Below, in pieces: positions 18,265-43,899 of a DNA stretch of 64,000 nucleotides. Position 1 is the stretch's first letter. Every line of letters begins with the position of its first letter. This stretch comes from Allomuricauda sp. CAU 1633. Its GTDB lineage: Bacteria > Bacteroidota > Bacteroidia > Flavobacteriales > Flavobacteriaceae. The stretch covers positions 62,001 through 126,000 of the forward strand of contig NZ_JAFLNE010000005.1 in assembly GCF_017313225.1 (NCBI RefSeq), in the 5' to 3' direction. Position numbers and translations under genes: made by a program. Below the pieces are notes generated by a model. It saw nothing but the letters and a program-made list of their open reading frames with translations. It made no database searches and was not told the DNA's origin.

Positions 18265-20637
18265 TTAGAATTTCCACCATTTTTTGGCGACTTTTCCATA
18301 ACCGTAGCCATATTTGCCACCATACCCTAAGTTATTCAATTTCACATCATTGACCACAAAGGAAAGTCCTTTTATTTTACCTTCTTTCAGTAATTTCAAT
18401 GGAAAATCAAGTGCCTTGGTCTCGGTCACATCAGCTCGGGTAACGTAAATCAATTGGTCTGCGTGTTCACTGATCAAAAGTGTATCTGAGACCAACATCA
18501 TAGGTGCTGTATCAACAATGACATAATCATAGCGTTCCGAAACTTCATCCAAAAGCTCTTTTAGTCTCCCGCTCATAAGAAGTTCTGAAGGGTTTGGGGG
18601 TATTCTCCCTGAGTAAATTACATCAAAATTGTTGTCATGTACCAGCATGGTATTCACAATTTCCTTGTAAGAAGATATATTTCGGTCATGCAGATATTCG
18701 GTCAATCCATAATCCGATTTATTCTGCCCCACGGAAAGTTTATCAACATTCTTTCCGGTAAAAAAGCTTTTAAATTTAGGGTTACGTACATCGGCCCCGA
18801 TCAACAAAACCTTTTTGTGGGTATTGGCCAATATCATGGAGAGGTTCACCGATAAAAAGGTTTTACCCTCACCTGGCACACTTGATGTAATGTAAATAAT
18901 GTTATCAGATTTTTTATTGGGCCTGGATTTTATCAAATAGTCCAAATTGGCCCTAATAATACGAAGTGCCTCGGCCAAAACCGAGCGATCATCCTTGGTA
19001 ACAACTTTTTGCTCTTTTTTGGAAAGTCGTGGTAACTCGCCGAGTATGGGCACACTGCTGTGCACGATTTTCTCCAAATTGTGCATATTGTGCACTTTGT
19101 TGTCCAATAAGTCTTTACCATAGATTACGGTAAAGGGTATTAAAAGTCCTAAAATCCCAAAGGCCAAATAAACTATCTTCTTTCTTGGAGATACTGGTAG
19201 TTCTTCAAAATACGCACTGTCGATCAATTTAGACTTTGGTGCTGTTGAAGCTACTGTAATTTGGGCTTCTTCCCTTTTTTGCAAGAGATACAGGTATAAG
19301 GATTCTGTGGTTTGTTGGCGTCTTGTGATGTCCCGCAGGGCCCTTTCGTTCTTTGGCGCTGAATAAATCTTTGAGTTGATGATGGCTTGTTGCCCGCTCA
19401 AGGTGTTCACCTGTAGTCCCAAGTTGTTCACCGTACTGTTTAAACTTGCCTGCATTGTCCTTTTTAAGCTACTCAATTGCTGGTCAAGGTTAACAATGAC
19501 AGGGTTCTTCTCATTGGAACTTTCCAGAAGACGATTTCTTTCTTGAACCAATTGGTTGTACTGCTGTGTAGTATTGGCTATGGTAGGGTCTGATAGTCCC
19601 AAATTGGCAGGGAGCACTTCAAAGCTTTCTTGCTGGTCCACCATATCCCGCATGGAGGAGGCAATGTTCAATTGTGTTTCAGCATTGGCCAAATCTTGTC
19701 GATTGGCCGCCCCTACATTGAGGTTGAGATTGGCTTCAGAAGCAATATCAGTTACGCCTCTACCCGTTTTAAAATCCTCTGCAGATTGGTCTACTGAGGA
19801 TAAGCTCGATGATATATCGGCTATCCGCCCTTCAATAAAACTTGAGGTTCTATCCGCAATCTGTTGCTTATCCTCAATGGCGTTCTTGTTATAAATGGCC
19901 ACCAATTCATTAATGATATCCCTAGCCTTTTCTTTCACGGGATCTTGTAAACTAATGTCAAGAATATTTGAAAAATCATTTGGCTTGGAAATAATGATTT
20001 CAGTTTGGTATACCGTCGCAATTGTGGAAAGGGGCAACACCTGAACTTTAAGTCTTTTCCCTAAGTGCTTGCTAATATAATCTGCATTGGGCGTAATGAC
20101 TATATCCCCAATAGAGGTTGTAATATTCTTACCAAAAGCATAATTTTTGGGTGCTTCATCTTCTTCAACAGAATATCCAAAGCTTGTTGTAGAAGAATTT
20201 AGTTCCAAATAAAACTCAAATTCTGCCTTATAGATGGTAGAATCCGGAGCTATGATGTTCAGGGTTATTGGTGAATTATTGTAAAGTTCCGTATTTCGGA
20301 TACTGCCCAGGGAGTAAACCTTGGTGTTAAGGCCCAATTTCTTGGCTACTTCAATCAAGTTGGAACGAGACGTAATGATTTCAACCTCATCCTCAACATT
20401 GTTTTCCATATCTGAAAAAACATCTATGTCTTGCAAAAGACTAGCCCCAGGGCTCGCTGATTTTTCCTGAATAATTTGAATTTTTCCTTTCGCCAGATAT
20501 TTGGGTGTTGAATATCGAATAAAAAGGTGGGCAACAATAACTCCAATGATAAAAGATAGGGCAAACCACTTCCAATGTTTGGTATACTTTCTTATTTCAT
20601 CACTAAAATTAAAGTCACTAGTATTATTTTGACTCAT
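18265..20637 (-). CDS. wzc: Polysaccharide co-polymerase / tyrosine autokinase (Wzc family)
   Basis: Inner-membrane protein that controls chain export together with Wza and autophosphorylates on tyrosines. Of 790 residues, a Wzz-type N-terminal domain has a first membrane segment near residues 28-48, a long periplasmic region with coiled-coil character, a GNVR-like region, a second membrane segment near 490-510, and a C-terminal BY-kinase. Walker A is SSVPGEGKT (about 585-595), Walker B is YDYVIVDTAPMM. The Walker A' segment reads LLIGADVRNP, with Gly where the classical motif has Asp. The tail is Tyr-rich (GYGGKYGYGYG), the expected phosphorylation cluster. I chose ATG 20637 over an in-frame TTG six bases upstream. 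It lies 28 bases after the wza stop, in one operon. Confidence 0.92.
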   Translation of the reverse strand: MSQNNTSDFNFSDEIRKYTKHWKWFALSFIIGVIVAHLFIRYSTPKYLAKGKIQIIQEKSASPGASLLQDIDVFSDMENNVEDEVEIITSRSNLIEVAKKLGLNTKVYSLGSIRNTELYNNSPITLNIIAPDSTIYKAEFEFYLELNSSTTSFGYSVEEDEAPKNYAFGKNITTSIGDIVITPNADYISKHLGKRLKVQVLPLSTIATVYQTEIIISKPNDFSNILDISLQDPVKEKARDIINELVAIYNKNAIEDKQQIADRTSSFIEGRIADISSSLSSVDQSAEDFKTGRGVTDIASEANLNLNVGAANRQDLANAETQLNIASSMRDMVDQQESFEVLPANLGLSDPTIANTTQQYNQLVQERNRLLESSNEKNPVIVNLDQQLSSLKRTMQASLNSTVNNLGLQVNTLSGQQAIINSKIYSAPKNERALRDITRRQQTTESLYLYLLQKREEAQITVASTAPKSKLIDSAYFEELPVSPRKKIVYLAFGILGLLIPFTVIYGKDLLDNKVHNMHNLEKIVHSSVPILGELPRLSKKEQKVVTKDDRSVLAEALRIIRANLDYLIKSRPNKKSDNIIYITSSVPGEGKTFLSVNLSMILANTHKKVLLIGADVRNPKFKSFFTGKNVDKLSVGQNKSDYGLTEYLHDRNISSYKEIVNTMLVHDNNFDVIYSGRIPPNPSELLMSGRLKELLDEVSERYDYVIVDTAPMMLVSDTLLISEHADQLIYVTRADVTETKALDFPLKLLKEGKIKGLSFVVNDVKLNNLGYGGKYGYGYGKVAKKWWKF

Positions 20638-20665
20638 TACCAAATGTTGTAAATAGAATTATAAC

Positions 20666-21442
20666 CTAACTTCTGGTTATAAGAATAATGGTTGATGTAA
20701 TTAATATTGAAGCAATTGACACATAAATTCCGGCCCTATTATCCAGGCTTGAGGCCGTTACAGCAGATTTGTTGGGCTCTACATAGACCACATCGTTTTG
20801 TGTCAAATAATAAACCGGCGAGCTCAAGACCTCTTTGTTGGTCAAATCGACCTTGGTGTAGACTTTGGTACCATCAAAATCGCGGATGACCATTACATTG
20901 TCACGTCTACCCTTAATAGTTAAATCACCTGCAAGCCCTATAGCCTCCAATATTGTAATACGCTCTCCTTCAACATTGTATGTTCCAGGATTGTTGACGT
21001 CCCCCAAAATAGTTACAGTAAAGTTTTTTAATCGAATATTAATGATGGGATCTTTTAAATAATCGCTCAACCTTTCCCGTAAAAGTACTCTCACCTCTTC
21101 TGGGGAAAGACCTGCTATCTTAATTTTTCCAATTACCGGAAAATCAATTTCGCCATCTTGGTCCACCAAGTAATCAACTTGCTCGGGACGCATACCGTCT
21201 TCCTGTGACCCCCTAAAAAGGTTAAATGGTACACTGGCCTCTGGATTCAGGGTAGATATGTGGATTCCGACCAAATCATCAACCTTGAACTTAGGTGAAA
21301 ATGTGTTTTTATCAACCAAAGTTTCAAAGTTGTTTGAGTTTTGAAAATAAACCACATCTTTCGGTGATGCACATGACGCCACCAACAAAACAATTGTGGC
21401 CAACACTACAAGATGATGACTCGCTTTTTTTAAAATTCCCAT
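20666..21442 (-). CDS. wza: Polysaccharide export outer-membrane lipoprotein (Wza family)
   Basis: Outer-membrane export channel component. From ATG 21442 the protein has 258 residues with a lipoprotein signal (lipobox LVASC near residue 24). It then has a poly-export domain (VDDLVGIHISTLNPE...GEIDFPVIGKIKIAGLS) and an SLBB domain (VTILGDVNNPGTYNVEG), with a C-terminal hydrophobic helix (SIASILITSTIILIT). An upstream in-frame start would add 28 residues before the signal and overlap the preceding gene, so I reject it. It lies between the dehydratase and wzc genes with short gaps. Confidence 0.93.
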   Translation of the reverse strand: MGILKKASHHLVVLATIVLLVASCASPKDVVYFQNSNNFETLVDKNTFSPKFKVDDLVGIHISTLNPEASVPFNLFRGSQEDGMRPEQVDYLVDQDGEIDFPVIGKIKIAGLSPEEVRVLLRERLSDYLKDPIINIRLKNFTVTILGDVNNPGTYNVEGERITILEAIGLAGDLTIKGRRDNVMVIRDFDGTKVYTKVDLTNKEVLSSPVYYLTQNDVVYVEPNKSAVTASSLDNRAGIYVSIASILITSTIILITRS

Positions 21443-21464
21443 TGAAGTTGATTTATTGTATTGA

Positions 21465-23399
21465 TTAAGAATGCATAATTTTTTTGTCCTCAATCTCATC
21501 TTTGTCGGCAGTTTTGGACTTATCAAATCTACAAAGATCAGAGTTATTAGAAATATACTCCGGCACTATTTCTTTCATTATTTGCACGATGGAACCATTA
21601 AAGAACATATTGGACACAAAAAGTTCATCGATTTTGGAACGGACAAACTCATAGTTTAAGTCCCTAACCTTGCTAATCATAATCTTTTTGTTGTAGGTAG
21701 GCAATGTATTTTCGCCATTGGCCAACAATTCCTCATACAACTTTTCACCAGGTCGCAGACCTGTAATTTTTATGTCAATATCTTCAGGATATTTAAGTCC
21801 GGAAAGTTTGATCATGTTTTTGGCCAGATCAAAGATTTTAACCGACTCGCCCATATCAAAAATAAAGATCTCGCCACCTTTTCCCATGGCCCCAGCTTCC
21901 AATACCAATTGGGATGCTTCTGGAATGGTCATAAAATAACGTGTAATGTCTTTATGGGTCACCGTAAGCGGACCACCTTTTTCAATTTGTTTTTTGAAAA
22001 GCGGTATTACGGAACCATTTGAACCCAATACATTTCCAAATCTGGTGGTTATGAACTTGGTTTTCTGTTCCTGCTGCTTACAACTAATGTACATTTCAGC
22101 GATACGTTTGGTCGCACCCATTACATTGGTTGGGTTCACCGCTTTATCTGTGGACACAAAAACAAACTTCTCTACATTATGGCTTATGGAAAGGTCTGCA
22201 ATGATTTTGGTACCTCCCACATTTATTTTGATGGCTTCATACGCATTGTACTCCATTAAAGGCACATGCTTGTAGGCCGCTGCATGAAACAAAATATCTG
22301 GCTTATGCTCTTCAAAAAAGTGGTTCATCCTATTTTTATCCCTGATATCAGCTACAATGGGGATAAAATTATGGTGCCCAGCTTGTTTTAATTCTTGCTG
22401 AAGGTCATATAATGCAGACTCTGCCTGATCTATTATCACCAAGGACGAATAGTCATAGTTTGCAATTTGCCTTGCTATCTCACTTCCAATTGAACCCGCA
22501 CCTCCGGTCACCATAATGGTCTTGCCCTTAAGCTCCTCAGAGACTTTGGACTTTCTAATGCTGATTGGTACCCTATTCAACAAATCTTCAATCTGTACAT
22601 TCTTGATCTGGGATACTTTAAACTCTCCATTGATCCAATCTTGCACAGGCGGTACGATCTTAACCTGCACCGGTAAATCAACCAAGCCTTCAACCAGTCT
22701 TCTAAGTTTGATGTTGTCAATCTTATGAATGGCAACAATAATCTCGGTTATGTTGTATTTATCAATCAAGTACTCGGTCAAGTCCGATCTTGAATGTACA
22801 GGAAGACCATTGATGCGTTTTCCGGCTTTTTTCTTATCATCATCAATAAAACCAACCACTTTGGAATTGGTAGCAGTATGATTGCTAAGTGCATTACAGG
22901 TTATAATCCCCGATTCTCCCGCACCATAGATGAACACATTTTTGAAAACCTTGAACTTCGCGACCATATTATGGTACATGGCCTTAAAAATATATCTTGA
23001 TGCGGTAAGTCCCACAAAACTGATAAGGCTGTGTATTATTATAATGGAAAGTGGTATGGTAAAACCATCAACATACTCGAACTGCCTATTGAGAATAATT
23101 ATAAAAATGATTAGGATACTGGATAGGCATATGGCATTGAAAATATTGTAAATGTCCTTGATTCCCGTATGTCTAACAAAACCCTTGTGAGATCCCGTTA
23201 CCACAAAAGCAGCGGCTGCCATGAACATCACAACGGGTAATTGCACCAAAAGCTTCGACACGTCAAAATCAAAGGAAAGGTTAAACCTGATGATATAGGA
23301 AAGCACAAAAGAAAATGCAATCACTAAAGTGTCAATGGCCAGAACCAGCCATTTTGATGCATATCGGTGTGAATTCTTTAAAATGTATTTTTTTAGCAT
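21465..23399 (-). CDS. UDP-N-acetylhexosamine 4,6-dehydratase, membrane-bound (CapD/PglF/WbpM-like)
   Basis: Predicted to convert UDP-GlcNAc to the 4-keto-6-deoxy sugar. It has 644 residues, with four N-terminal membrane helices (about 15-130), a CoA-binding-like Rossmann domain (FIYGAGESG), and a second Rossmann SDR domain (VTGGAGSIGS near 293). The catalytic stretch STDKAVNPTNVMGATKR lies at about 414-430, where Met replaces the usual SDR Tyr, as known for the PglF/WbpM group. The stop of the upstream aminotransferase overlaps this start by one base (TAATG), so translation is probably coupled. The aminotransferase is the natural next enzyme. The exact stereochemistry (retaining or 5-inverting) cannot be read. 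Confidence 0.92.
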   Translation of the reverse strand: MLKKYILKNSHRYASKWLVLAIDTLVIAFSFVLSYIIRFNLSFDFDVSKLLVQLPVVMFMAAAAFVVTGSHKGFVRHTGIKDIYNIFNAICLSSILIIFIIILNRQFEYVDGFTIPLSIIIIHSLISFVGLTASRYIFKAMYHNMVAKFKVFKNVFIYGAGESGIITCNALSNHTATNSKVVGFIDDDKKKAGKRINGLPVHSRSDLTEYLIDKYNITEIIVAIHKIDNIKLRRLVEGLVDLPVQVKIVPPVQDWINGEFKVSQIKNVQIEDLLNRVPISIRKSKVSEELKGKTIMVTGGAGSIGSEIARQIANYDYSSLVIIDQAESALYDLQQELKQAGHHNFIPIVADIRDKNRMNHFFEEHKPDILFHAAAYKHVPLMEYNAYEAIKINVGGTKIIADLSISHNVEKFVFVSTDKAVNPTNVMGATKRIAEMYISCKQQEQKTKFITTRFGNVLGSNGSVIPLFKKQIEKGGPLTVTHKDITRYFMTIPEASQLVLEAGAMGKGGEIFIFDMGESVKIFDLAKNMIKLSGLKYPEDIDIKITGLRPGEKLYEELLANGENTLPTYNKKIMISKVRDLNYEFVRSKIDELFVSNMFFNGSIVQIMKEIVPEYISNNSDLCRFDKSKTADKDEIEDKKIMHS

Positions 23400-24523
23400 T
23401 AGTCTAGATTGTTTAAGATTAGGGAGGTTATTCGGTATAAATCTTCTTCAAGTAAGTTAGAGCCACTGGGCAAGCAAAGTCCTCTCTTAAAAAGATCAGA
23501 AGACGTTCCATTGGTATAACTTTTAAAATTTTTGAAGACGGGTTGTTCGTGCATGGGCTTCCAAAGTGGTCTACTCTCAATATCTTCCACTTGCAGGGCA
23601 AGCCTAATTTTTTCCCTCACCTCATAAGATGGGGTTAGGATGCAGGTAAGCCAGCGATTACAGTAAAATCCATTGGGTTCCTCCAAAAATTGAATTGTTT
23701 CAAGGTGACCCAATCGTTGTTTATAATACTGGTAATTTGCTCTTCTTGCGGTGACCCTATCGTCCAAAACTTCCATTTGTCCACGACCAATACCCGCTAA
23801 AATATTGCTCATTCTATAATTGTGTCCAATGGAAGAATGTTCATAATGTGGGGCGTTATCCCTGGCTTGCGTGGCCAAGAAAACTGCCTTTTTCTTTATC
23901 TCAATATCTTTTGTGAGCAGTGCACCACCGCCAGAGGTAGTAATGATCTTATTTCCGTTGAACGACAATATACCAATGTCTCCAAAACTTCCACATTTTT
24001 GTCCGTTTACAGAACTGCCCAGGGCTTCAGCACTATCCTCCACTACTGGAATTCCGTATTTCGCGGAAATCTCAGCGACCTCTTGGGTCTTATAGGGCAT
24101 ACCATATAAATGTACCGCCACGATCGCCTTGGGTTTTTTCCCGTTCTCAATACCGTCTAAAATGGCTTCTTCCAATAATTCTGGAGAGATGTTCCATGTA
24201 TCCTTTTCACTATCAACAAAAATGGGATTCGCCCCCAAATAGGTTATTGGGTTTGCAGAAGCTGAAAATGTAAAACTCTGACAAATAACATCATCATCAT
24301 GGGAAACGCCTAAAAGTTTTAGTGCCAAGTGAATTGCTGCAGTACCTGAACTCAATGCCGCAGTATTTACCTCATTAGTATAGTAATCGGATATTGAGGC
24401 TTCAAAACCATCAACGTTTGGCCCCAAAGGAGCTACCCAGTTGGTGTCGAAAGCTTCTTTAACATAGTGCTGTTCGGTTCCTCCCATGTGGGGTGAAGAC
24501 AACCATATTTTGGTTTTTGTCAT
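23399..24523 (-). CDS. PLP-dependent sugar aminotransferase (DegT/DnrJ/EryC1/StrS family, PglE-like)
   Basis: Predicted to transfer an amino group to the 4-keto sugar made by the downstream dehydratase, giving a UDP-4-amino-4,6-dideoxy-HexNAc. From ATG 24523 it has 374 residues, normal for the family. Seen are ALSSGTAAIHLAL (phosphate-binding), VVEDSAEALGS (Asp for the pyridine nitrogen), and the Schiff-base Lys in FNGNKIITTSGGG (about residue 192). It is the first gene of the minus-strand operon and has a good upstream promoter (24557-24585). PglE is the closest match in memory, but the exact product sugar is inferred. Confidence 0.92.
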   Translation of the reverse strand: MTKTKIWLSSPHMGGTEQHYVKEAFDTNWVAPLGPNVDGFEASISDYYTNEVNTAALSSGTAAIHLALKLLGVSHDDDVICQSFTFSASANPITYLGANPIFVDSEKDTWNISPELLEEAILDGIENGKKPKAIVAVHLYGMPYKTQEVAEISAKYGIPVVEDSAEALGSSVNGQKCGSFGDIGILSFNGNKIITTSGGGALLTKDIEIKKKAVFLATQARDNAPHYEHSSIGHNYRMSNILAGIGRGQMEVLDDRVTARRANYQYYKQRLGHLETIQFLEEPNGFYCNRWLTCILTPSYEVREKIRLALQVEDIESRPLWKPMHEQPVFKNFKSYTNGTSSDLFKRGLCLPSGSNLLEEDLYRITSLILNNLD

Positions 24524-24556
24524 CAAAATTGAATCTAGTTAAGGTTATTCGGGAAT

Positions 24557-24769: not shown

Positions 24770-26167
24770 ATGAAAAAAATCAATAAGATTTGTTGTATTG
24801 GTGCTGGCTATGTAGGCGGCCCCACTATGGCAGTAATAGCAAAGAATTGCCCAGAAATTGATGTCACCGTGGTAGACATCAACCAAAAAAGAATCGACCT
24901 TTGGAACCACGACAATCTTGACCTTCTTCCTGTTTATGAGCCCGGTCTAAAAGAAATTGTTGACGAAACCAGAGGGAAAAATTTATTTTTTTCAACCGAA
25001 GTGGATAAGGCCATCGATGAGGCTGAAATGATTTTCATCTCGGTAAACACACCTACCAAGACCTACGGAAAAGGGAAAGGCCTAGCGGCCGACCTTAAAT
25101 ATATTGAGCTTTGCGCAAGAAATATTGCTAAAGTGGCCAAAACGGATAAGATTGTAGTTGAAAAGTCTACATTGCCCGTGCGGACCGCAGAAGCCATTAA
25201 AAGTATTTTGGACAATACCGGTAAAGGAGTCAAGTTTGAAATCCTTTCCAATCCGGAATTTTTGGCCGAAGGTACTGCTGTTGAAGATTTATTGAATGCT
25301 GATAGAGTTTTGATCGGTGGCGATGAAACCAAATCCGGTCAAGATGCCAAGGACACCCTTAGTTGGGTATACGAACATTGGTTGCCCAAAGAACGCGTAT
25401 TGCAAACCAATGTTTGGTCTTCCGAGCTATCCAAATTGGTGGCCAACGCATTTTTGGCACAACGGGTTTCTTCCATTAACTCAATTTCTGCGCTTTGTGA
25501 AAAAACTGATGCCAATGTGGCCGAAGTATCCAGAGCTATTGGTTTTGATAGCCGAATAGGATCTAAATTCCTGAACTCCTCGGTTGGTTTTGGAGGTTCA
25601 TGCTTCCAAAAAGACATTCTAAACTTGGTATACATCGCCAAAAGTTATGGGCTTACCGAAGTCGCCGACTATTGGGAGCAGGTCATCATCATGAATGATT
25701 ACCAAAAAAGACGTTTTGCCGACAATATTATTTCCACACTGTACAATACGGTTTCAGGGAAAAAAATCTGTTTCTACGGCTGGGCGTTCAAAAAAGACAC
25801 CAACGATACGCGTGAATCTGCCGCTATATATGTAGCAGATGCCCTTTTGGACGAACAGGCCCAAATTGTAGTCTATGATCCAAAAGTTTCAGAAGAGACC
25901 ATTTATGCAGATTTGGATTATCTGGGAACCAGAAGTCCAGAGGAGAACAGAAAACTTTTAAAAGTGGTTAAAGACCCTAAGGAAGCCTGCAAAGATGCAC
26001 ATGCCATTGCCATTTTAACGGAATGGGACGAGTTTAAAAACTATGATTGGCCTGCCTTATTTGAGTTGATGCTAAAACCCGCCTTCGTCTTTGACGGAAG
26101 AAGAATCCTTGAAAAGGAAAAAATGGATTCTATCGGGTTTAAATACTACAAAATTGGGCAATCATGA
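24770..26167 (+). CDS. ugd: UDP-glucose 6-dehydrogenase
   Basis: Oxidises UDP-glucose to UDP-glucuronate with NAD+. It has 465 residues, closer in length and motifs to the animal-type enzyme than to short bacterial forms. It has the N-terminal Rossmann GAGYVGGPT, the central [10 protein letters not shown], and the catalytic Cys278 in [10 protein letters not shown]; the C-terminal UDP-binding half carries [11 protein letters not shown]. It is the first gene of the plus-strand unit divergent from the aminotransferase operon. Its stop overlaps the next start by four bases (ATGA), so the two are translationally coupled. Confidence 0.95.
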
Positions 26168-27183: not shown

Positions 27184-27218
27184 AACATTAATTCTAAAAT
27201 TAATCAAGTAAAACACTG

Positions 27219-28130: not shown

Positions 28131-28183
28131 AGGTCTTCGGTCCACTCCTTTCCAAATGTCCAATCGCATTGGATTAGTTTGGC

Positions 28184-29260: not shown

Positions 29261-29296
29261 AAAACTAAAACCGCCCTATGAAATTCATAGGGCGGT
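29261..29296 (-). terminator. Strong terminator downstream of the lyase gene
   Basis: Inverted repeat of about 13 pairs (29270-29282 with 29284-29296) flanked on the low-coordinate side by an A-rich run, which is a U-tract in minus-strand RNA. It sits 55 bases after the stop of the lyase gene. Confidence 0.9.
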
Positions 29297-29350
29297 CCAT
29301 TAAAAATTAGAAGCGGAGTTGATTTTTGCATTAACGCTGAATCAAGAAAA

Positions 29351-35037: not shown

Positions 35038-36141
35038 TTGGAAAAAAAAATTGATGTCCTTTTTATTTTGCCATCATTGCGTTCAGGGGGTGCTGAGCGG
35101 GTCATGTCCTTTTTGGCGCAAAACATTGATCCTACTCTATTTGATTCCCATTTGCTGATTACGGGCTCCAACAAGGACCAGAAATATAAAGTAGAAAACA
35201 TTCCCGTAACCTTTTTAAACAAAAGTCGGGTCAAACATGCCATCCCTGCAATTATCAAGTTTCTGATCATGTACAGACCAAAAATAGTGATAGGTGCCAT
35301 GGGACACGTAAACACGGTAACAGGGTTTATTGGCCTTGTGTTCCCTTGGATAAAATTTGTGGCCAGGGAAACCACTATATCCAGTTTTAGTATGGAGGGC
35401 GACAAGACCGAACATGAAAGACCTGCTTTACCCTATCGCTTGGCACTAAAGTCCCAGGATAAGATTGTATGCCAATCCAATGACATGAAACATGATCTAA
35501 TTGAGAACTTTGGGTTGCCAGTTTCAAAAATGGTCGTCATCAATAATCCGGTGACTTCAAAATTCAAATTGAAAGAACGCATCTTTGCGGAAGACAATGT
35601 ATTACGGTTCATTACCATTGGTAGGTTAACGGAACGAAAAGGGTTTCAGAGGGTCTTAAAAGTCTTGGCAGAGTTCAACAAACCTTTTCATTATACCGTT
35701 ATTGGTTCGGGAGATTATAAGGATACCTTAGTTAGCTTGATTGACGAACTGGGGATTACTGAAAAAATCACATTTGTTTCCCACACCAATAAAATCAATG
35801 AGTATTTGGCGCAAAACGATCTTTACTTGCAAGGGTCTTATGTTGAAGGTTTTCCAAATGCATTAGTAGAAAGTTGTGCCACGGGCACTCCGGCCGTTGT
35901 TTTTGATGCCCCTGGTGGAATCAATGAAATCATTATTCCAGGGGTGAACGGGTACATGGCCAAAGATCATTCGGATTTTTTAGAAAAATTGGAATTGTCC
36001 ATCAACCACGATTGGAACCCAAGTGCAATTCGCGAGTCTGTGTATTCCAGATATTCAGAGGAAAAGATCTTGTCTAATTATGAAAACCTTTTTTTAGGGT
36101 TGGTCTCCCCCAAGAAAAAAATTCAGAAAAAAATAAAATAA
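35038..36141 (+). CDS. Glycosyltransferase family 4
   Basis: A GT-B enzyme of 367 residues. The N-terminal half has FILPSLRSGGAERVM. The C-terminal nucleotide-sugar-binding half has FITIGRLTERKGFQ, VIGSGDY and the EX7E-type region EGFPNALVESCATGTPAV. No in-frame ATG lies near the start. The reading frame is closed upstream at 35011, so TTG 35038 is the likely start. It is cytosolic or membrane-peripheral, adding one sugar to the lipid-linked unit. Donor and linkage are unknown. Confidence 0.88.
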   Translation: MEKKIDVLFILPSLRSGGAERVMSFLAQNIDPTLFDSHLLITGSNKDQKYKVENIPVTFLNKSRVKHAIPAIIKFLIMYRPKIVIGAMGHVNTVTGFIGLVFPWIKFVARETTISSFSMEGDKTEHERPALPYRLALKSQDKIVCQSNDMKHDLIENFGLPVSKMVVINNPVTSKFKLKERIFAEDNVLRFITIGRLTERKGFQRVLKVLAEFNKPFHYTVIGSGDYKDTLVSLIDELGITEKITFVSHTNKINEYLAQNDLYLQGSYVEGFPNALVESCATGTPAVVFDAPGGINEIIIPGVNGYMAKDHSDFLEKLELSINHDWNPSAIRESVYSRYSEEKILSNYENLFLGLVSPKKKIQKKIK

Positions 36142-36180
36142 TCTGATTTGCTACGTTATGTAGTAGAGAATTTCAATTAA

Positions 36181-37275
36181 ATGAAGGTTTTACAGGTAAT
36201 TAATTCTTTAAATTCAGGTGGGGCGGAAAAACTGGTCACAGATTTATGTATCGCTTATCTAAAAAAAGGAGTGGATGTTGAACTGGCTTTGCTGAACGGC
36301 AAAAAAACAGCGTTCATGGACCGTTTGACAAAAATTAGCCCCGAATTAAAAATCCACGATTTGGGCGAGGGAAAAAGTATGTACAGCCCGACGCATATTT
36401 TTAAACTAAAAAGATTGCTGAATCAATATGATGTGGTGCATGTGCACCTATTTCCATCTTTTTATTGGGTTGGGTTTGCAAGTTTTTTGGGGAATGTGCG
36501 GGCAAAACTTTTTTACACAGAGCACAACACCACAAACCGGAGGAGAAATCATCCCCTACTAAAACATATTGACAAAATCATCTACAAACGGTACACTAAA
36601 ATCATTTCCATATCAGATGCAGTGCACGAAAACTTGCAGGAACATCTTGGTAAATTAAGAAAGTTGGTGTATCAAATCAATAATGGAATCAATCTAAATG
36701 AGGTAAGTTCCGCTAAGCCATACCAAAAATCAGATCTAGGTTTTGACCAAACCACCACGCTTTTGCTACAGGTATCGAGTTTTACACCGCAGAAAGACCA
36801 AAAAACACTGATTGAAAGTTTACTCCACCTACCGGAGACCACACATCTTATTCTAGTGGGCGATGGTCCGCTAAGAGCGGAACATGAAAAACTGGCAGCT
36901 TCGTTGAAGCTATCGGACAGAGTTCATTTCTATGGACTGCGAAGCGATGTGCCCCGTCTTCTAAAGACCGTTGACATAGTTGTTCTTTCCTCAAACTTTG
37001 AAGGCTTGTCCCTATCTTGTGTTGAAGGCCTTGCCTCGGGGAAACCTTTTATGGCTTCAGACGTACCTGGCCTTACCGAAGTGGTCCAAGGACATGGAAT
37101 CCTATTTCCAAAAGGAGATCACGAATCATTGGCTGTAAACATAACCAAACTGACAACGGATGAGGTTTACTATAAAGACGTAGTTGAAAAATGTATGATA
37201 CGATCTAAAGATTTTGATATAGAAGATATGGTAGAAGGCTATTTGCAATGCTATACCGATGCCATTAAAAAATAA
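36181..37275 (+). CDS. Glycosyltransferase family 4
   Basis: A GT-B enzyme of 364 residues. The acceptor-side motif is VINSLNSGGAEKLVTDL, with FYTEHNTTNRRR in the middle. The donor side has LLQVSSFTPQKDQKTL, LILVGDGP and FEGLSLSCVEGLASGKPF (EX7E). It starts at an ATG 39 bases after the previous gene and belongs to the same block. Donor sugar cannot be read. Confidence 0.9.
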   Translation: MKVLQVINSLNSGGAEKLVTDLCIAYLKKGVDVELALLNGKKTAFMDRLTKISPELKIHDLGEGKSMYSPTHIFKLKRLLNQYDVVHVHLFPSFYWVGFASFLGNVRAKLFYTEHNTTNRRRNHPLLKHIDKIIYKRYTKIISISDAVHENLQEHLGKLRKLVYQINNGINLNEVSSAKPYQKSDLGFDQTTTLLLQVSSFTPQKDQKTLIESLLHLPETTHLILVGDGPLRAEHEKLAASLKLSDRVHFYGLRSDVPRLLKTVDIVVLSSNFEGLSLSCVEGLASGKPFMASDVPGLTEVVQGHGILFPKGDHESLAVNITKLTTDEVYYKDVVEKCMIRSKDFDIEDMVEGYLQCYTDAIKK

Positions 37276-37302
37276 GGAGCCATTCAATAATCGCCACAAT
37301 CA

Positions 37303-38442
37303 ATGACAAAGCCAAAAGTTTTAATTATTTGTTCTGTTTCCTATTCCCTGCTCAACTTCAGGAAAGATTTTATAGAAGAACTTGTTCTAGCAGGCTATGA
37401 TGTTTGGTGTGCAGCCCCAGATTATGACAAGGTTAACTCTGACGCCGTTAAGGCCATGGGCGCCCATCCTGTTGAATTCAATCTGCAGCGTAAAGGGCTA
37501 AATCCCTTCAAAGATTTTAAAAGTGTGAGGGAACTCAAAAAAATCATGAAAGACCTTGAGGTGGATTTTGTGTTTGCCTACACCATTAAACCGGTTATTT
37601 ATGGCTCTTTTGCAGCTCAGCAATTAAAAATCAAAACCTTTTCGCTGATTACAGGGCTCGGTTTTACCTTCAGCGGGGTTTCCCTAAAATCGAAGCTTTT
37701 GGGTCAGGTTTCACGACTATTGTATAAGCTTGCTCTCAGAAAAAACAACGTTGCCATTTTTCAAAATGTGGATGATAAAAACCTCTTTTTGGAACAAGGT
37801 ATTCTGCCCAAAAACAAAGAATCCTTTGTGGTGAACGGCTCTGGAATCAACATAGATCGCTTTCGCCCTAAAACTGATGATGAATTCAATAAAGGGGGCA
37901 CTGTAAATTTTATCATCATTGGCCGATTGATGGTTGAAAAAGGCATTGAACTGTTCCTTGACACCGCTGTATCCGCACATAAAGAAAATAGGGACGCCAA
38001 ATTCCATGTGGTTGGCAGCCCTCCTGAAGATTTGACCGCATTGGCATCAAGATTACAAAAGCTACATGATACTGGTGTAATTGTGCACCATGGGACGCAA
38101 ATGGATGTTAGGCCTTATCTCTACGCCGCGGATATTTTTGTCTTGCCCACTTACTATAGGGAAGGCGTGCCAAGGTCCATTTTAGAAGCCCTATCGGTAG
38201 GTTTGCCAATAATAACTACACGAACTCCCGGATGCAGGGAAACCGTAGAGGAAGGAAAAAATGGCTTTTTGATTCCGCCAAAAGAATTGGAGCCTCTTAA
38301 AAAAGCCGTAAACTACTTTTTGGACCATCCAGGTAAAATTGAAGCCATGGGAAGAGAAAGTAGAAAACTTGCGGAACAGAAGTTTGATGTCCGCTTGATA
38401 AATGCTGATTTACTCAAGATCATCAATCAAAATATTGCATGA
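37303..38442 (+). CDS. Glycosyltransferase family 4 (PglA-like)
   Basis: A GT-B enzyme of 379 residues. It resembles PglA, which adds the second sugar onto undecaprenyl-diphospho-bacillosamine. Seen are [13 protein letters not shown], a membrane-associating [11 protein letters not shown] and [11 protein letters not shown] region, [17 protein letters not shown], and [21 protein letters not shown] (EX7E). It overlaps the downstream sugar transferase by four bases. That matches a pair where this enzyme acts directly after the initiating transferase. The exact donor is inferred, not seen. Confidence 0.9.
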
Positions 38443-39053
38443 TGTATTCAAAATTCTTTAAACGAATAATAGATTTTTTGGTCTCATTGGTGGCGCTACT
38501 GGTGCTATCTCCCATTATTTTAACATTGACCATTCTGCTTGCATGGGCAAATAATGGAAAACCCTTTTTCTTTCAAAAAAGGCCGGGGAAAAATGAAAAG
38601 ATCTTCACCATTATCAAGTTCAAGACCATGAACGATAAGAAGGATGCCCAAGGCAACCTCCTCCCCGATATGGAACGCATTACCAAAGTGGGCAAGTTTG
38701 TGCGTGGTGCCTCTCTTGATGAAATTATGCAACTTATCAACGTACTTAAAGGAGACATGTCCATTGTTGGACCGAGACCCCTTTTGGTGGCCTACCTCCC
38801 ACTCTACAATTCCGAACAGGCCAAACGGCATAATGTAAAACCCGGAATTACAGGATGGGCACAAGTCAATGGCCGTAATGCCATAAGTTGGGAAGAGAAA
38901 TTTAGGCTGGATGTGTGGTACGTCAATAACATTAGTTTTGCCACTGATGTAAAAATCTTGGTCAAAACCGTGCAAAAAGTAGTACAACGCGATGGTATAT
39001 CGGCCAGTGAAGACCAAACCATGGAACGGTTCATGGGAACCAAAAACCAATGA
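38439..39053 (+). CDS. Initiating phosphoglycosyl transferase (PglC-like small PGT)
   Basis: Moves a sugar-1-phosphate from a UDP-sugar to undecaprenyl phosphate, the first committed step. Its 204 residues correspond to the minimal monotopic PGT. A single N-terminal re-entrant hydrophobic segment ([17 protein letters not shown]) is followed by the catalytic Asp-Glu pair in ASLDEIMQL, then [12 protein letters not shown] and [14 protein letters not shown]. Size matches PglC rather than WbaP-type long enzymes. A UDP-4-amino-4,6-dideoxy sugar from the operon at 21465-24523 is a plausible substrate. Confidence 0.93.
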
Positions 39054-39179
39054 ACCTCTTTTACAAGGATGCATATTCAAAATAGCTGCATCCTACCACT
39101 TATGTACGATTCAAAGAAAGTTTGAACAACTTTATAGATAAAAATCAAAGCCATACCAATAAATACCTAGATTTGGACA

Positions 39180-39956
39180 ATGGACAAATTAAGGCAAGCT
39201 GATACAACCATGAAAACTGTAATGATTTTAGGGGGATCCAAAGGAGTAGGAAAGGAAATCCTCAAATCCTGTGTAAAGAAGGGCTATAACGTAGCCTTTT
39301 GTGGGCGAAACCAAGAGGAAGGCCATAAGGTCATCGAATCCACACAAGCTCAAGATCAACTCTATTTCCATAAAATTGACTTGAATGACGTTGAAGACAT
39401 TAAAGACTATTATGAGAAAACCATAGAGCGTTTCAAAAAAGTGGATGCTTTGATTTTGTATGCAGGTACCACTTCAATAGCATCAATACTTGATGTAGAG
39501 GAGGACGTGTATGATAGTGTGTTCAACATCAACCTTAAGGCACCCTTCTTTTTATTGAAACACGTGCTAAAATCCATGGTTGAACAGCAGTCAGGTTCCA
39601 TTCTATTTTTTGGGTCGGCGCACATGGATTATGGCGAAGTCGACAGAGCTCCGTATGCCTTGACCAAAAGCAGTTTATATACATTATCAACCCATATAGC
39701 ACATCATTATGCCAAATATGGCGTGAGATCCAATTATTTGGTCATGGGTTGGACCAATACCGAAGGAGAACTTGAGCTACGCGACAAAGAAGGTGTAAGC
39801 GAGGAGAAACTAAAGGAAAAGGCATCGGGAATCATCCCAATGGGTAGAATGCTCAATACATCGGACCCCATACCCGCAGTGATGTACTTTATTTCAGACG
39901 AATCAGCAATGACAACCGGCTCATTGATGCGAATTACAGGAGGAGAGTTTATTTAG
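39180..39956 (+). CDS. Short-chain dehydrogenase/reductase
   Basis: A classical SDR of 258 residues (about 248 if the ATG at 39210 is used). It has the cofactor motif GGSKGVGKE and LILYAGT in place of NNAG. The catalytic Ser lies in FFGSAHMDYG, with Tyr and Lys in YALTKS, and the tail TGSLMRITGGEF is typical. It is oriented with the assembly block, so it may make or modify a nucleotide sugar or precursor. The substrate cannot be read and a generic oxidoreductase role is equally possible. Confidence 0.85.
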   Translation: MDKLRQADTTMKTVMILGGSKGVGKEILKSCVKKGYNVAFCGRNQEEGHKVIESTQAQDQLYFHKIDLNDVEDIKDYYEKTIERFKKVDALILYAGTTSIASILDVEEDVYDSVFNINLKAPFFLLKHVLKSMVEQQSGSILFFGSAHMDYGEVDRAPYALTKSSLYTLSTHIAHHYAKYGVRSNYLVMGWTNTEGELELRDKEGVSEEKLKEKASGIIPMGRMLNTSDPIPAVMYFISDESAMTTGSLMRITGGEFI

Positions 39957-40068
39957 ATAGAATGACCCCATCTTCAACTTTTGAAAATAGAATTCCAAAC
40001 ACCATAAAATCTGCACCTGAAAGCAATATTTATGGTGGTGGTTTGTTTTATAATCAATCGAATAAACT

Positions 40069-41310
40069 ATGAGTCAATTGAATACTGTTGAAATAAGCGT
40101 CATTGTACCCATTTATCGGATTGAAAAGTACTTGCCTCAATGTATTGATAGTCTGCTGGATCAATCTTTTTCAGATTTTGAATTGATTTTGGTGGACGAC
40201 GGCAGCCCAGACAATTGCCCTAAAATTTGTGATGATTACGCAAAAGAAGATGCTAGGATAAAGGTTGTTCACAAAGAAAACGGCGGACTCTTAAGTGCTC
40301 GAAAAGCAGGATTGGACAATGCCAGTGGAAAATATATTGCATACGTTGATGGTGATGATTGGGTGGATACGTTTTATTTGGATACCTTGTACAAACTTGC
40401 GGTGGCAAATGACTCAGACCTTGTGGTTACAGGCCATTTTAGGGAGTTCGATGGTAAAATAGAGACCATAAAACCAAAAGATACCGGCACCTATAGTCAT
40501 GAAGAAGTACAATCCTCCATTCTTCCCAACGCTATCTATAATGGCCGTTTCTGTGAGCATGGCATATCAACCTACGTGTGGAACAAATTGTTCAAAAAGT
40601 CGCTGTTGAGTGAGGTTCTGTATGATGTCCCCAATGAGATAATCATGGGAGAAGACGCAGCCATAACCTATGCCTACCTTACCATTTCAAAAAAGATTAC
40701 CGTAAGCAAGGTTCCAGTGTATTACTATAGACAGCGACATGATTCAATTGTGAAGTCCATTGAGAATCCGCAGATGGAATACTATAGGTTGGGGTTGTTG
40801 ATGAGTTTTCTAAAATCAAAGCTCAGTACAGTTCTTGACGCAAAAAATCTGGATAAGCAAATTACATATTATTTGTACTCTCAAATTTTGGTTCGCTCCG
40901 GGGGGTTGATTTTTGACAAGGATAGCAATTTGATTTTCAATCCTTTTTTAAATGTTGGCCCTAAATCGCGAGTCGTTGTTTATAGCTCTGGTTCTTTTGG
41001 ACAACATATTTTGTCTACCAATACCAAGGCCAACTTTTTTGAGGTGGACAAGTGGATAGACTTGGATTTTCATCCTTTAAGTATTGGCGGAAACCATGTA
41101 CAACCCATCAGTGCTGCAAACAACAATGATTTTGATCATTTGATCATCGCCACCATCAATCCCACAAATCATGATGAAATCCAAGAGGAGCTGGAGCTTA
41201 TGGGCATTGATGCAAACAAAATTGTAGAAATTAACACAAACATAGAGGACATTAAAAAATTACTGATGGATTTGGGCTTTAATGACCAATTTGAGTATCA
41301 AAAAAATTAA
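40069..41310 (+). CDS. Glycosyltransferase family 2 with C-terminal Rossmann-like domain
   Basis: The 413-residue protein has a GT-A domain at its N-terminus (about 8-230): SVIVPIYRIEKYL, LVDDGSPDNC, and the DXD-type YVDGDDWVD. After a helical part, residues 305-400 form an extra domain that begins VVVYSSGSFGQHIL and contains DFDHLIIATINPT. This looks like a Rossmann fold of the type found in sugar-modifying acyltransferase N-termini. It may bind a nucleotide or control the transferase; this is inference. The next gene encodes an ATP-grasp enzyme. Confidence 0.85.
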   Translation: MSQLNTVEISVIVPIYRIEKYLPQCIDSLLDQSFSDFELILVDDGSPDNCPKICDDYAKEDARIKVVHKENGGLLSARKAGLDNASGKYIAYVDGDDWVDTFYLDTLYKLAVANDSDLVVTGHFREFDGKIETIKPKDTGTYSHEEVQSSILPNAIYNGRFCEHGISTYVWNKLFKKSLLSEVLYDVPNEIIMGEDAAITYAYLTISKKITVSKVPVYYYRQRHDSIVKSIENPQMEYYRLGLLMSFLKSKLSTVLDAKNLDKQITYYLYSQILVRSGGLIFDKDSNLIFNPFLNVGPKSRVVVYSSGSFGQHILSTNTKANFFEVDKWIDLDFHPLSIGGNHVQPISAANNNDFDHLIIATINPTNHDEIQEELELMGIDANKIVEINTNIEDIKKLLMDLGFNDQFEYQKN

Positions 41311-41379
41311 TCCCCCACCCAATTAAAATTGAAACCTCAGAAACATCAAAATAAGACGATGTTGTAATAACTTTGATTT

Positions 41380-42648
41380 ATGAAAAGACTTATTATACTG
41401 GGAGGTAACCCAGAAACGGCTGTTTTGGTAGATGTGGCAAATGCAATGGGCATTTATACCATTGTAGTTGACCCAAATCCCAATGCGCCAGCCAAAAAAA
41501 ATGCTGCTGAATCCCATGACTTTGATGGTTTTGATGTTGATGGCATTGCGCAATTGGCTAAAGACCGTAATGCGGATGCTGTGTTGGTTGGAGTGGCGGA
41601 CATCTTGGTAAAACCCTACAGGGAGATTTGTGAAAAATTGGGCATACACTGCTACGCCACCAAAGAAGCCATTGAGGCCTTTTGCAGTAAAGATGGCTTT
41701 AAAAGGTATTGTGCCGAATATAATATTCAGGATATTCCAGGAATTTATTTGGATGCATCAAACATTGATAAGCCAGAAAATCTGGACTATCCCTTAATGA
41801 TAAAACCTGTTGATAGCGGTGGTGGGGTTGGCATGAAGATTTGCAGAGACGATAACGACTACAATGAGTCGGTAAAGACCGCATTGAAATTTTCCAAAAA
41901 AGGAGTCGTCTTAGTTGAAAAATACATGGACTGCGATGATATGGCTGCGTATTATACTTTTAGAAATGGCGTTCCGTATATTTCAGCAATATCTGATAGA
42001 CTTACTACAAAAAAACAAGGGGATGCCAGTCCGGTTTGTATTGGAGCAGTATATCCATCCAAACATTCCCAGCTGTTTATTGATCAAGTGCATCCAAAAC
42101 TTTGCGAGCTCTTTAAGGGGCTGAAAATCCAAAACGGGGTACTCAATATTCAGTTTTTTGTGGAAAATGGCGTAGTCTATGCCTATGACCCCGGCTTTAG
42201 ATTGCAAGGTGAGGCACCACACATCCACATTAACCACATCAACGGATTCGATCATAGGGAAATGCTGGTAAATTATGCCTTTACCGGTGTTTTGGGAGAA
42301 GATGATTTTGCCGAAAAAAATGATTATTGGTTCAGAGGAAAAAATGCCTGTACCATTTGGATACTACTAACAGGAGGTGAAATTGGGTCCATTGAAGGTG
42401 TGGATGAAATAAAAAATGATCCAAATACCGTTTTTGTATTGGAACGATTTAAAGAAGGGGACACTGTTGAAGAAGAATGGCTAGGAACCGAGCGACAGGT
42501 GTATTCCAGAATCTATGTCGTGGCGGATACCATTGCGGAAATCAACTCCAAAATCCGTGCTTTTAAAGATGTTTTGAAAATCAAGGACACTAATGGCGAG
42601 AACATGATTTTGGAATGGTTGAAGCCTTTCAACGAAGATGACTATTAA
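41380..42648 (+). CDS. ATP-grasp enzyme of polysaccharide locus (carboxylate ligase-like)
   Basis: The 422-residue protein has the three-part ATP-grasp layout. The pre-ATP-grasp Rossmann part is LIILGGNPETAVLVDVANAMG. The ATP-binding core has YPLMIKPVDSGGGVGM (glycine-rich loop) and VVLVEKYMD. The metal-binding part lies around YAYDPGFRLQGEAPH, and an extra C-terminal domain follows from about 330. The family makes acyl-phosphates from carboxylates and couples them to amines or thiols. With UDP-uronate genes in the same locus, amide formation on a uronic acid is possible, but the substrate cannot be deduced. It is not a carbamoyl-phosphate synthase by size. Confidence 0.8.
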   Translation: MKRLIILGGNPETAVLVDVANAMGIYTIVVDPNPNAPAKKNAAESHDFDGFDVDGIAQLAKDRNADAVLVGVADILVKPYREICEKLGIHCYATKEAIEAFCSKDGFKRYCAEYNIQDIPGIYLDASNIDKPENLDYPLMIKPVDSGGGVGMKICRDDNDYNESVKTALKFSKKGVVLVEKYMDCDDMAAYYTFRNGVPYISAISDRLTTKKQGDASPVCIGAVYPSKHSQLFIDQVHPKLCELFKGLKIQNGVLNIQFFVENGVVYAYDPGFRLQGEAPHIHINHINGFDHREMLVNYAFTGVLGEDDFAEKNDYWFRGKNACTIWILLTGGEIGSIEGVDEIKNDPNTVFVLERFKEGDTVEEEWLGTERQVYSRIYVVADTIAEINSKIRAFKDVLKIKDTNGENMILEWLKPFNEDDY

Positions 42649-42864
42649 ACAAAAGAAAACTCCTTTCGTTTAAACATATAGAAGTAGTTTGCCCCATAAA
42701 ATGGCACTAAATCAATTTTATTTGTCAATACTGAAGGATGCTCTAGTTTTATGCTGATTTTGAGGGCAATATGAAAAAATGAATTGTCTCATTATTCGTA
42801 TCAAAGTCCTCAAATCTGCATTTTTTAGTGATAAAAACAACAACACAACCCAATCAAGATTGCA

Positions 42865-43899
42865 ATGAAATTAAGCATACTTATTCCGCTTTATAACAAG
42901 GAAAAATATATTGAGCGCTGCTTTAAAAGTCTATTAGATCAAGACCTATCAGCAAATGAATATGAGATTATCATTGTTGACGATGGCTCCAAAGATTCAG
43001 GAGCTGCGATTGTGGCTGACTATGCTGAAAAGCATGCCAACATCCATCTCATAAAACAACAAAATCAAGGCCCAAGCGTGGCTCGAAACAAGTGCTTGGA
43101 GGCAGCCAAGGGTGACTACGTCTATTTTTTGGATGCAGATGACTATTTGGCCACCAATGTCTTGAAAGCCTTGATTGATTTGGCTACAGGGCATGATTTG
43201 GACGTACTCGAATTCGAAACCAAGGAAAAGAAGGAAGGTTCAGAACTCGACTTTGATTCCATGACAAAAAACCCACAAGATTTACCCGTGGAGGTCATGG
43301 ATGGCATTAGTTATGTTGCCGAGTACGGCTTTAGAAATGAAGCATGGCGCTATATTGTTAAAAGAAGCCTTTTGGAGAATGCCGGGGTAAAATTTATTGA
43401 AGGTACTTTGTACGAAGATGCCATTTTTACTGCCAGTCTCTTTTTTAAGGCCAGTAGAATGGCCAAAGTGGACATGGATGTCCACCGCTATATCGTGGTT
43501 GAAAATTCCATTGTTACCAGCAAGGACCGGGCGCACAACCTCAAATTTATTCATGGCATGGTCAATGCCATTGAGCATTTTCATGGTTTGATCAAAGGAT
43601 TGGATAGCTCCCACCCCGATTATGGTAGAGTGGTTAAAAATCTAAAAGGTAAACAGCAGGCTTATGTTTTTGCCTTGATTATAAGAACTTTAAAATACCG
43701 TTTGCTCAGTTTTAAGGAACTGAAACAAATACTATCCAAATTGCATACGTTTGAGGCGTATCCCATGGATCCGAAAATTGGAGGTATTGGTGAAGGCAGT
43801 ACAGGGCGTTTATACAACATGACTTTTGTTCCGGCATTTAACAATAAGACCTGTCTTTATTTGGGTATGGGGTTGATGAAAATTATGCCCTCACGTTAG
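42865..43899 (+). CDS. Glycosyltransferase family 2
   Basis: A GT-A enzyme of 344 residues with SILIPLYNKEKYIERCF, IIVDDGSKDSG, QGPSVARNKCLE and the DXD-type YFLDADDYLA. It is preceded by a 216-base gap, longer than others in the block, so it may have its own promoter, although no clear TAnnTTTG box was found. It is the last gene before the terminator at 43930-43965. Donor and acceptor are unknown. Confidence 0.9.
   Translation: MKLSILIPLYNKEKYIERCFKSLLDQDLSANEYEIIIVDDGSKDSGAAIVADYAEKHANIHLIKQQNQGPSVARNKCLEAAKGDYVYFLDADDYLATNVLKALIDLATGHDLDVLEFETKEKKEGSELDFDSMTKNPQDLPVEVMDGISYVAEYGFRNEAWRYIVKRSLLENAGVKFIEGTLYEDAIFTASLFFKASRMAKVDMDVHRYIVVENSIVTSKDRAHNLKFIHGMVNAIEHFHGLIKGLDSSHPDYGRVVKNLKGKQQAYVFALIIRTLKYRLLSFKELKQILSKLHTFEAYPMDPKIGGIGEGSTGRLYNMTFVPAFNNKTCLYLGMGLMKIMPSR

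Follow-up and report, generated by a model that had tools for sequence, protein, structure and literature searches.

A lyase-like lipoprotein with a shared N-terminal anchor and varied C-terminal domains in the polysaccharide loci of Allomuricauda and other Flavobacteriaceae

We analyzed a stretch of 64,000 nucleotides from Allomuricauda sp. CAU 1633 (assembly GCF_017313225.1, contig NZ_JAFLNE010000005.1, positions 62,001–126,000; hereafter, the window), in which a surface-polysaccharide biosynthesis locus contains the gene of a 739-amino-acid lyase-like lipoprotein (29351–31570, minus strand). The start of this protein is shared with lipoproteins encoded in the polysaccharide loci of most genomes of the genus, and the C-terminal parts of these proteins fall into several groups. 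With moderate confidence, we favor the reading that the lipoprotein is a locus-encoded surface depolymerase matched to the cell's own, probably sulfated Wzx/Wzy/Wza polysaccharide. A broader proposal, to which we give slightly less than even weight, is that in a clade of the Flavobacteriaceae nearly every strain-specific locus has a host equivalent of the phage tailspike, consisting of a shared surface anchor and an exchangeable depolymerase (several sequence groups, at least two folds); the anchor end could stay with the flank while the catalytic domain moves with the sugar and sulfotransferase genes, keeping the cutter matched to the coat. In the following, labels beginning with G denote genus genomes (G000 is the strain's own genome), and labels beginning with L denote fetched loci (L024 is that of Saonia flava).

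The shared anchor (31403–31558, minus strand) comprises a lipobox and SCQKDSDLFAEAVL, as defined by an alignment of 26 sequences (A1) in which the common start reads SCxKDxDLFxEAI and the motif's C and D do not vary. When the window lyase was searched against 60 genus genomes, many matches were confined to the first 60-odd residues, and the ones inspected proved to be lipoproteins that differ in their C-termini and are encoded in the same locus. A profile of the anchor, which matched the window lyase with E = 2.5e-20, yielded 56 matches at E ≤ 5e-6 in 54 of the 60 genomes (the next match had E = 1.4e-5). All 45 matches that shared a contig with pglF, the gene used as the locus marker, were located within 31 kb of it, and the idea that the lyase is an accidental neighbor was rejected on this count. 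Among the 31 matches in genomes that had not contributed to the profile, 23 were near pglF, five were in polysaccharide loci as judged by their neighbors, one was on a contig too short for a judgment, and two were elsewhere. The first-pass annotation had spoken of a dedicated lyase, and the case for this is stronger than its reader could have known, the anchored gene being a near-constant component of the locus.

Beyond the genus, the anchor profile matched 23 of 198 family genomes from other genera (E ≤ 1e-5), and in all 20 loci fetched from these genomes, homologues of window-locus genes surrounded the anchored gene; Saonia flava, one of the 20, had been in the profile. These family searches scored at most 34–41 first-look candidates per genome, and the counts may be too low. 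In a class-level sample, only one of 197 other genomes was matched, and weakly. This, together with the single strong match in most genus genomes, led us to reject the possibility that the anchor is merely a general export signal. A broader profile (A4), built from 67 of 78 candidate anchors, matched 30 of the 198 other-genus genomes at E ≤ 1e-4; 20 of these genomes had contributed sequences to it, and the remaining 10 matched weakly (E 1.7e-6 to 8.9e-5). The charged K–D stretch directly after the lipobox cysteine resembles the surface lipoprotein export signal of the Bacteroidota, for which the published optimum is C-X-K-(D/E)2 after the lipobox (PMC5080379). Unlike a bare export signal, the anchor goes on past this stretch with DLFxExV, and a profile of it picks out this protein family.

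Evidence that the core of the lyase may be exchanged came from the comparison with G039, a genus member. When window positions 17001–46000 were compared with G039 by blastn, the DNA aligned at 83–88% apart from three gaps, at 27175–28187 (spanning the sulfotransferase 1 gene, ST1, which is absent in G039), 29588–30707 (the central part of the lyase gene), and 43977–44146 (intergenic). Thus, over 29 kb, only two breaks affected coding sequence, ST1 and the lyase core. The putatively exchanged catalytic core (29588–30707, minus strand; amino acids ~288–661) had no DNA match to G039, and its flanks aligned over 1.4 and 13 kb. The identity of the two lyases was 85% over amino acids 1–230, 36% over 291–650, and 93% over 661–735. 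The Wzy-like proteins were 77% identical, and the other shared locus genes, the lyase excepted, 88–98%. The lyase of Saonia flava, which carries both ST1 and a second sulfotransferase (ST2), was 79% identical to the window lyase in the core and only 63% in the N-terminal part, although its other locus genes were more distant from those of the window than were those of G039. By these identities, the lyase core in the trio follows the sulfotransferase complement and not kinship.

A second clear mosaic gene was found between G005 and G001, which were 92.8% identical in DNA across the conserved side; the similarity broke off inside the lyase gene, at about amino acid 221, and the locus genes past the break were 45–77% identical until the last small open reading frame (ORF), at 94%. 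Lyase similarity was compared with the number of shared variable genes in 38 genomes whose core genes were in hand, and the two were correlated (r = 0.32; 637 pairs at 60–80% core identity); none of 2000 label shuffles, which do not keep relatedness, gave a value as high. Pairs with similar lyases shared 5.2–6.9 variable genes on average, compared with 1.3–2.2, in the 70–90% strata of core identity; the shared-gene counts may be too low because the fetched loci are partial. That the lyase may act on the polymer of its own locus is indicated only indirectly, by core differences that go with locus differences.

The lyase is laid out as the anchor (amino acids ~1–56), a CBM96 domain (65–210), a polysaccharide lyase family 1 (PL1)/PelZ-like region (~245–650), and a conserved C-terminal tail (~661–735). 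CBM96 (E = 2e-10) was the sole Pfam match, with no Pfam pectate-lyase match. The NCBIfam PelZ model matched with E = 4.6e-13 and did not pass its cut-off (48.8 bits against 840), and the phage pectate-lyase family phrog_27797 matched with E = 1.9e-13. A phmmer search of the PDB with the window lyase alone gave no match at E ≤ 1. When a profile of 28 of the 38 members of the PL1-type C-terminal group (A3) was used instead, the solved structures matched were 9buj (E = 1.1e-67), VexL (6fi2, second best, E = 2.6e-25), PelB, 3zsc, and PelC, all of which we take to be PL1 enzymes. D382 and R460 (in HRFPN) were invariant in all 28 aligned members, and R460 aligned with the RxP motif of VexL, Jun a 1, PelB, and 3zsc, the arginine of which is presumably catalytic in PL1 lyases. 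A search of genome contigs with the window lyase found one named relative, Saonia flava.

The local anchor search gave 82 anchored proteins, of which 79 were clustered after two that were cut by the fetched stretch (L025_17 and L121_7) and a duplicate of L024 (L155_6) had been left out. Their last 280 residues formed groups of 38, 13, 7, 6, 4, 3, 3, and 2 members, plus three singles; seven groups were found in the polysaccharide loci, and the group of two was a pair from outside them. The grouping is by sequence: several of the groups have the look of beta-helices and may be distantly related to each other, and one looks all-helical (by eye only). When the non-locus pair (L102_11 and L106_9) was also left out, 77 proteins remained (alignment A5), among which the families were PelZ-like (35), the Ig-like Big_9 (19), Beta_helix (10), CBM96 (9), Polysacc_lyase PF14099 (3), PF00544 (2), and chondroitinase-B-like (1). 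Most C-terminal groups with any match were lyase-like or phage-tail-like. The proteins of L161 and L159 had no match in the PDB at E ≤ 0.1. In G004, two anchored genes of the PL1 group lay in tandem in one locus (L036, 9147–12621).

The first-pass annotation had also named two different sulfotransferases, which was borne out: ST1 (27219–28130, plus strand; Sulfotransfer_3) and ST2 (28184–29071, minus strand; Sulfotransfer_3/1) both lie inside the locus and exceed the curated PF13469 cut-off (E = 7e-12 and 1e-17, respectively). The starts GRSGST and PRSGTS in their protein sequences are presumably P-loop-like. A PADLOC search with ST2 gave no match. ST1 was kept in Saonia flava and was the only whole gene missing from G039 relative to the window, and ST2 was 92% identical to that of G039 and 82% to that of Saonia. 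PF13469 was found in 15 of the 60 genus genomes, including that of the strain itself; in five (G000, G039, G033, G028, and G025), at least one copy lay within 20 kb of pglF, and in two without pglF at E ≤ 1e-100 (G002 and G013), a copy was within 10 kb of the anchored lyase. A sulfotransferase is thus present at the polysaccharide locus in seven of the 60 genomes, which suggests that sulfation is an optional decoration. All three genus loci with a PF14099-type anchored protein (L045, L047, and L051) also carried sulfotransferases, a possible sign that this type is connected with sulfated polymers.

The sulfotransferases might instead act on lipids or another molecule and leave the polysaccharide unsulfated, a reading that we consider unlikely but that has a real share of the probability. 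The closest solved relatives of both are non-carbohydrate enzymes (polyketide/CurM sulfotransferases for ST1 and a weak match to 2z6v for ST2), so that the sequence alone does not name the sulfate acceptor, and no genes for synthesis of the sulfate donor 3′-phosphoadenosine-5′-phosphosulfate (PAPS) were found among the scanned proteins of the window locus. However, a second polysaccharide locus of the same genome (L038, contig C1 of G000, 340001–360000) contains two more sulfotransferases, and an adenosine-5′-phosphosulfate (APS) kinase gene (E = 3e-64) stands there beside genes that, from their Pfam GTP_EFTU and PAPS_reduct matches, are read as CysN/CysD-like, i.e., ATP-sulfurylase-like (~353–356 kb); it also has an Inositol_P-family gene, perhaps CysQ-like, an initiating transferase, a flippase, and two Wzy-like genes. 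Given the APS kinase and CysN/CysD-like genes, PAPS can probably be made in this strain from genes outside the window locus. These genes, the two Pfam-passing sulfotransferases inside the locus, and the absence of ST1, as the sole whole gene, from a near-identical locus, with a change of the lyase core alongside, make it likely that the polysaccharide of the window locus is sulfated.

Several observations weigh against a depolymerase matched to its own locus. Regarding the anchor, six genus genomes (G003, G006, G007, G014, G038, and G058) had no strong match to its profile, of which three are <90% complete and G058 is 100% complete. Two similar anchored proteins (L102 and L106; 557 and 541 amino acids) are encoded outside polysaccharide loci, in genomes that also have an anchored gene in a polysaccharide locus. 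The fit of the window sequence CQKDSD to the export optimum is only partial: the lysine is at +3 and aspartates are at +4 and +6, with a serine at +5 following KD. Regarding the exchange, the two mosaic pairs were the only clear ones: when 14 further pairs, mostly picked for similar lyases, were compared, only one, G005/G001, combined a conserved N-terminal part with a changed core, and in most of them the first 60 residues were less conserved than the middle, which means that the constancy lies in the short motif. G145, which has ST1 (no ST2 in the fetched 20 kb), shares a core at 70% identity with G008, which has no sulfotransferase at the locus; the core of G045, with no PF13469 match in its genome, is 58–59% identical to both. 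In the 65–70% stratum of core identity, the eight lyase-similar pairs shared 0.4 variable genes, compared with 0.8 for dissimilar pairs. Regarding the enzyme, PF00544 was matched at E ≤ 1e-4 in only two of the 77 anchored proteins, and a structure model of the lyase domain, predicted with the window and Saonia sequences, was uninformative (mean pLDDT of 27.6, pTM of 0.17). Looser clustering of the whole C-termini joined 60 of the 79 proteins, partly via shared CBM96 or Ig parts, and several C-terminal groups had no enzyme match, so that some anchored proteins could be non-catalytic binders.

An alternative view takes the anchored protein for a surface lectin or adhesin, in which a dead lyase fold tethers the cell's own polysaccharide to the outer membrane and the domain varies for recognition only. 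The groups that match no enzyme family would be expected on such a view, as would the CBM96 beside the lyase domain, and tethering would account just as well for the common anchor and its close linkage to the locus. It is nevertheless unlikely: the domains are repeatedly lyase-like and come from different families (PL1-like, PF14099, and chondroitinase-B-like), which would be odd for pure binding, and D382 and R460 are invariant in the 28 aligned members of the PL1 group.

The domains also share families with phage depolymerases. Among the 77 proteins, 35 matched phage pectate-lyase families, 30 hydrolase, 10 tail protein, six virion structural protein, and four tail spike families. This is in line with the idea that the domain is a captured phage depolymerase used for competition or phage defense, either to shed the cell's own coat as a receptor or to attack neighbors with the same coat. 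The L117 protein matched 175 phage records, and the best 10 of these included tail-spike or neck-appendage proteins of Bacillus phages at 27–30% identity. On the other side, the window lyase had 12 matches to phage records at 23–33% identity, including Cellulophaga phage phi10:1, and the L041 protein had no match to phage records; at such low identities, no recent transfer is visible, and the presence of the anchored gene in 54 of the 60 genus genomes suggests a general role. We consider the phage-capture reading improbable. As for a foraging enzyme that digests outside pectin- or alga-like polysaccharides and neighbors the polysaccharide genes by chance, the Flavobacteriaceae are rich in pectate-lyase-type foraging enzymes and the solved relatives include pectate lyases, but the scan of 20 locus proteins turned up no SusC/SusD or sugar-use gene and the linkage to pglF is as tight as described above, so we regard it as very improbable.

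We therefore return to the locus-encoded depolymerase as the preferred reading, which may be pictured as follows. The strain-specific locus would build a Wzx/Wzy/Wza polymer that probably starts with a 4-amino-4,6-dideoxy sugar and has at least one uronic acid in the chain, and the two sulfotransferases would probably sulfate it. The polymer would be exported via Wza, and the lyase, displayed at the outer membrane, would cut it. The shared N-terminal anchor would take the lipoprotein to the outer membrane, probably to its outer face, given that CxKDxD resembles the Bacteroidota signal, and the CBM96 and PL1-type domains would bind the chain and cleave it by beta-elimination beside a uronate. 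The lyase might trim the coat of its own cell, free it, or remodel it, e.g., by setting chain length, releasing stuck chains, or shedding the coat. The lyase has to fit the polymer, and its core would therefore be open to exchange: when the polysaccharide or decoration genes change, perhaps including the gain or loss of sulfate, recombination inside the lyase gene would swap the catalytic domain, while the anchor stays.

All of the genes named in the first-pass annotation were present in the 25.6-kb region at 18265–43899, according to Pfam and NCBIfam scans. The region is not a single operon but consists of several units on both strands. A minus-strand run contains the genes of a Wzc-type chain-length/kinase protein with a tyrosine-rich tail (18265–20643; Wzz, GNVR, and AAA_31, and sequence), a Wza-type export lipoprotein (20666–21526; Poly_export, E = 1e-15, and SLBB), the PglF-like membrane UDP-sugar 4,6-dehydratase that served as the locus marker (21465–23399; Polysacc_synt_2, E = 1e-120), found at E ≤ 1e-100 in 51 of the 60 genus genomes, and a DegT/LegC-like aminotransferase (23399–24526; DegT, E = 1.5e-89), which scored 381 bits against the LegC-family model of NCBIfam, under its cut-off of 420. 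A plus-strand run follows, with a UDP-glucose 6-dehydrogenase family protein (Ugd; 24770–26167; family scan), an NAD-dependent sugar epimerase of the extended short-chain dehydrogenase (SDR) type (26164–27183; Epimerase, E = 8e-61), and ST1. The epimerase and DegT missed every NCBIfam cut-off among those shown, and their assignments are made at the family level. The earlier description of the polysaccharide as uronate-rich had as its basis only one Ugd, one epimerase, and the PL1-like lyase, and is unsupported.

ST2 and the lyase then lie on the minus strand, and in the gap between them, 3′ of the lyase, a terminator-like hairpin of 14 pairs (29268–29298, minus strand) had the top score in a consensus scan, which suggests that the lyase gene is a single-gene unit; overall, the hairpin scan found 19 hairpins compared with 16.7 in shuffles, a small excess. 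The remaining genes are on the plus strand: Wzx flippase (32097–33632; Polysacc_synt_3, E = 3e-68), Wzy-like polymerase (33629–34942; Wzy_C, E = 1.8e-5, under the cut-off), three GT4 glycosyltransferases identified by family scan (35038–36141, 36181–37275, and 37303–38442), a small PglC-type initiating phosphoglycosyltransferase (38439–39053; Bac_transf, E = 1e-62), an SDR (39180–39956; adh_short, E = 9e-40), a GT2 glycosyltransferase (40069–41310; family scan), an ATP-grasp ligase (41380–42648; CPSase_L_D2/Dala_Dala_lig_C; best solved relative 4dim, E = 6e-13), and a second GT2 glycosyltransferase (GT2b; 42865–43899; family scan).

The gene order of the window is kept in G039, without ST1, and within the fetched part of its locus, Saonia flava, also a member of the Flavobacteriaceae, has the same genes with the block from wzy to GT2b inverted and wzx beyond the fetched end. 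This recurrence indicates that the locus is more than a chance run of genes. The outer flanks also recur in several genomes, with a gene for a 3083-amino-acid protein on one side and ompA, a further GT4 gene (GT4d), and nagZ on the other. Because these flanks are shared and the gene content between them varies, the locus is a fixed chromosomal site with interchangeable content, like capsule and O-antigen loci. The 3083-amino-acid gene (8787–18038) adjoins wzc, is 93% identical to that of G039 over the fetched part, and has parts similar to regions of some anchored proteins from other genera. Another minus-strand ORF of at least 2541 amino acids (2–7624) is open past the left end of the window.

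Depolymerases encoded in the locus of the polymer that they cut have been described singly. AlgL, with which the lyase had initially been compared, is the lyase of a biosynthesis locus whose polymer, alginate, it cuts, and it has a different fold, is periplasmic, and belongs to a synthase-dependent pathway; the comparison therefore holds for the role only. Closer relatives in kind are WceF and VexL, the latter a lyase whose gene belongs to the Vi capsule locus. Like these, the window lyase gene sits in a surface-polysaccharide biosynthesis locus. VexL of Achromobacter denitrificans (PDB 6fi2) acts on a capsule and is periplasmic, in an ABC-transporter system (Liston et al. 2018, as cited in PMC7949094). 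VexL, a beta-helix capsule enzyme, is the second-best solved relative of the PL1-group profile, as noted above, and the window lyase differs in being a lipoprotein that has CBM96, the shared anchor, and a stretch resembling an export signal, encoded in a Wzx/Wzy/Wza/Wzc locus. WceF of Pantoea stewartii is a tailspike-like beta-helix encoded in an exopolysaccharide cluster and active on that exopolysaccharide, and is a trimer with a twin-arginine signal, according to the relevant sections of PMC7949094. It is similar in being a depolymerase encoded in a polysaccharide cluster and linked to phage tailspikes, but no lipoprotein anchor with exchangeable domains is seen for it in those sections.

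Sulfated capsules had been called little described, but sulfated capsule and exopolysaccharide clusters with sulfotransferases are published, including those of Vibrio sp. KMM 8419 (PMC11641403), Cobetia marina KMM 1449 (PMC11766843), and synechan (PMC8205485). Together with the optional occurrence of the sulfotransferases, this weakens the suggestion that sulfation by itself defines a distinct class of polysaccharide. The Vibrio capsule cluster contains sulfotransferases, an ABC transporter, and PAPS genes, and PAPS synthesis genes within the cluster are called a hallmark of sulfated capsule clusters in that report (PMC11641403). The window locus likewise has its sulfotransferase genes inside the cluster; it differs in having a built-in lyase and in that the genes for PAPS lie elsewhere in the genome, in another locus. 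The main text of the Vibrio report contains no word starting with "lyase" (PMC11641403). Sulfated capsule clusters and single locus-encoded depolymerases (WceF, VexL, and AlgL) are thus already known. A polysaccharide locus of the Flavobacteriaceae or Bacteroidota with a built-in lyase that combines a clade-wide anchor with exchangeable domains was not found in an open-licence library, which is no proof of its absence.

Marine Flavobacteriaceae have varied surface polysaccharides, the structures of which are difficult to determine. If every locus points to its own cutter, the short anchor motif would be a search key for polymer-specific lyases, which may be of use in solving coat structures, in following the release of coats as marine carbon, and in understanding coat differences relevant to phages. 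The window strain and G039 form a natural pair with otherwise nearly identical loci that differ in one sulfotransferase and in the core of the lyase. If the proposal is true, self-depolymerases would be a regular part of the Wzx/Wzy systems of this clade, and not isolated cases such as AlgL, VexL, and WceF.

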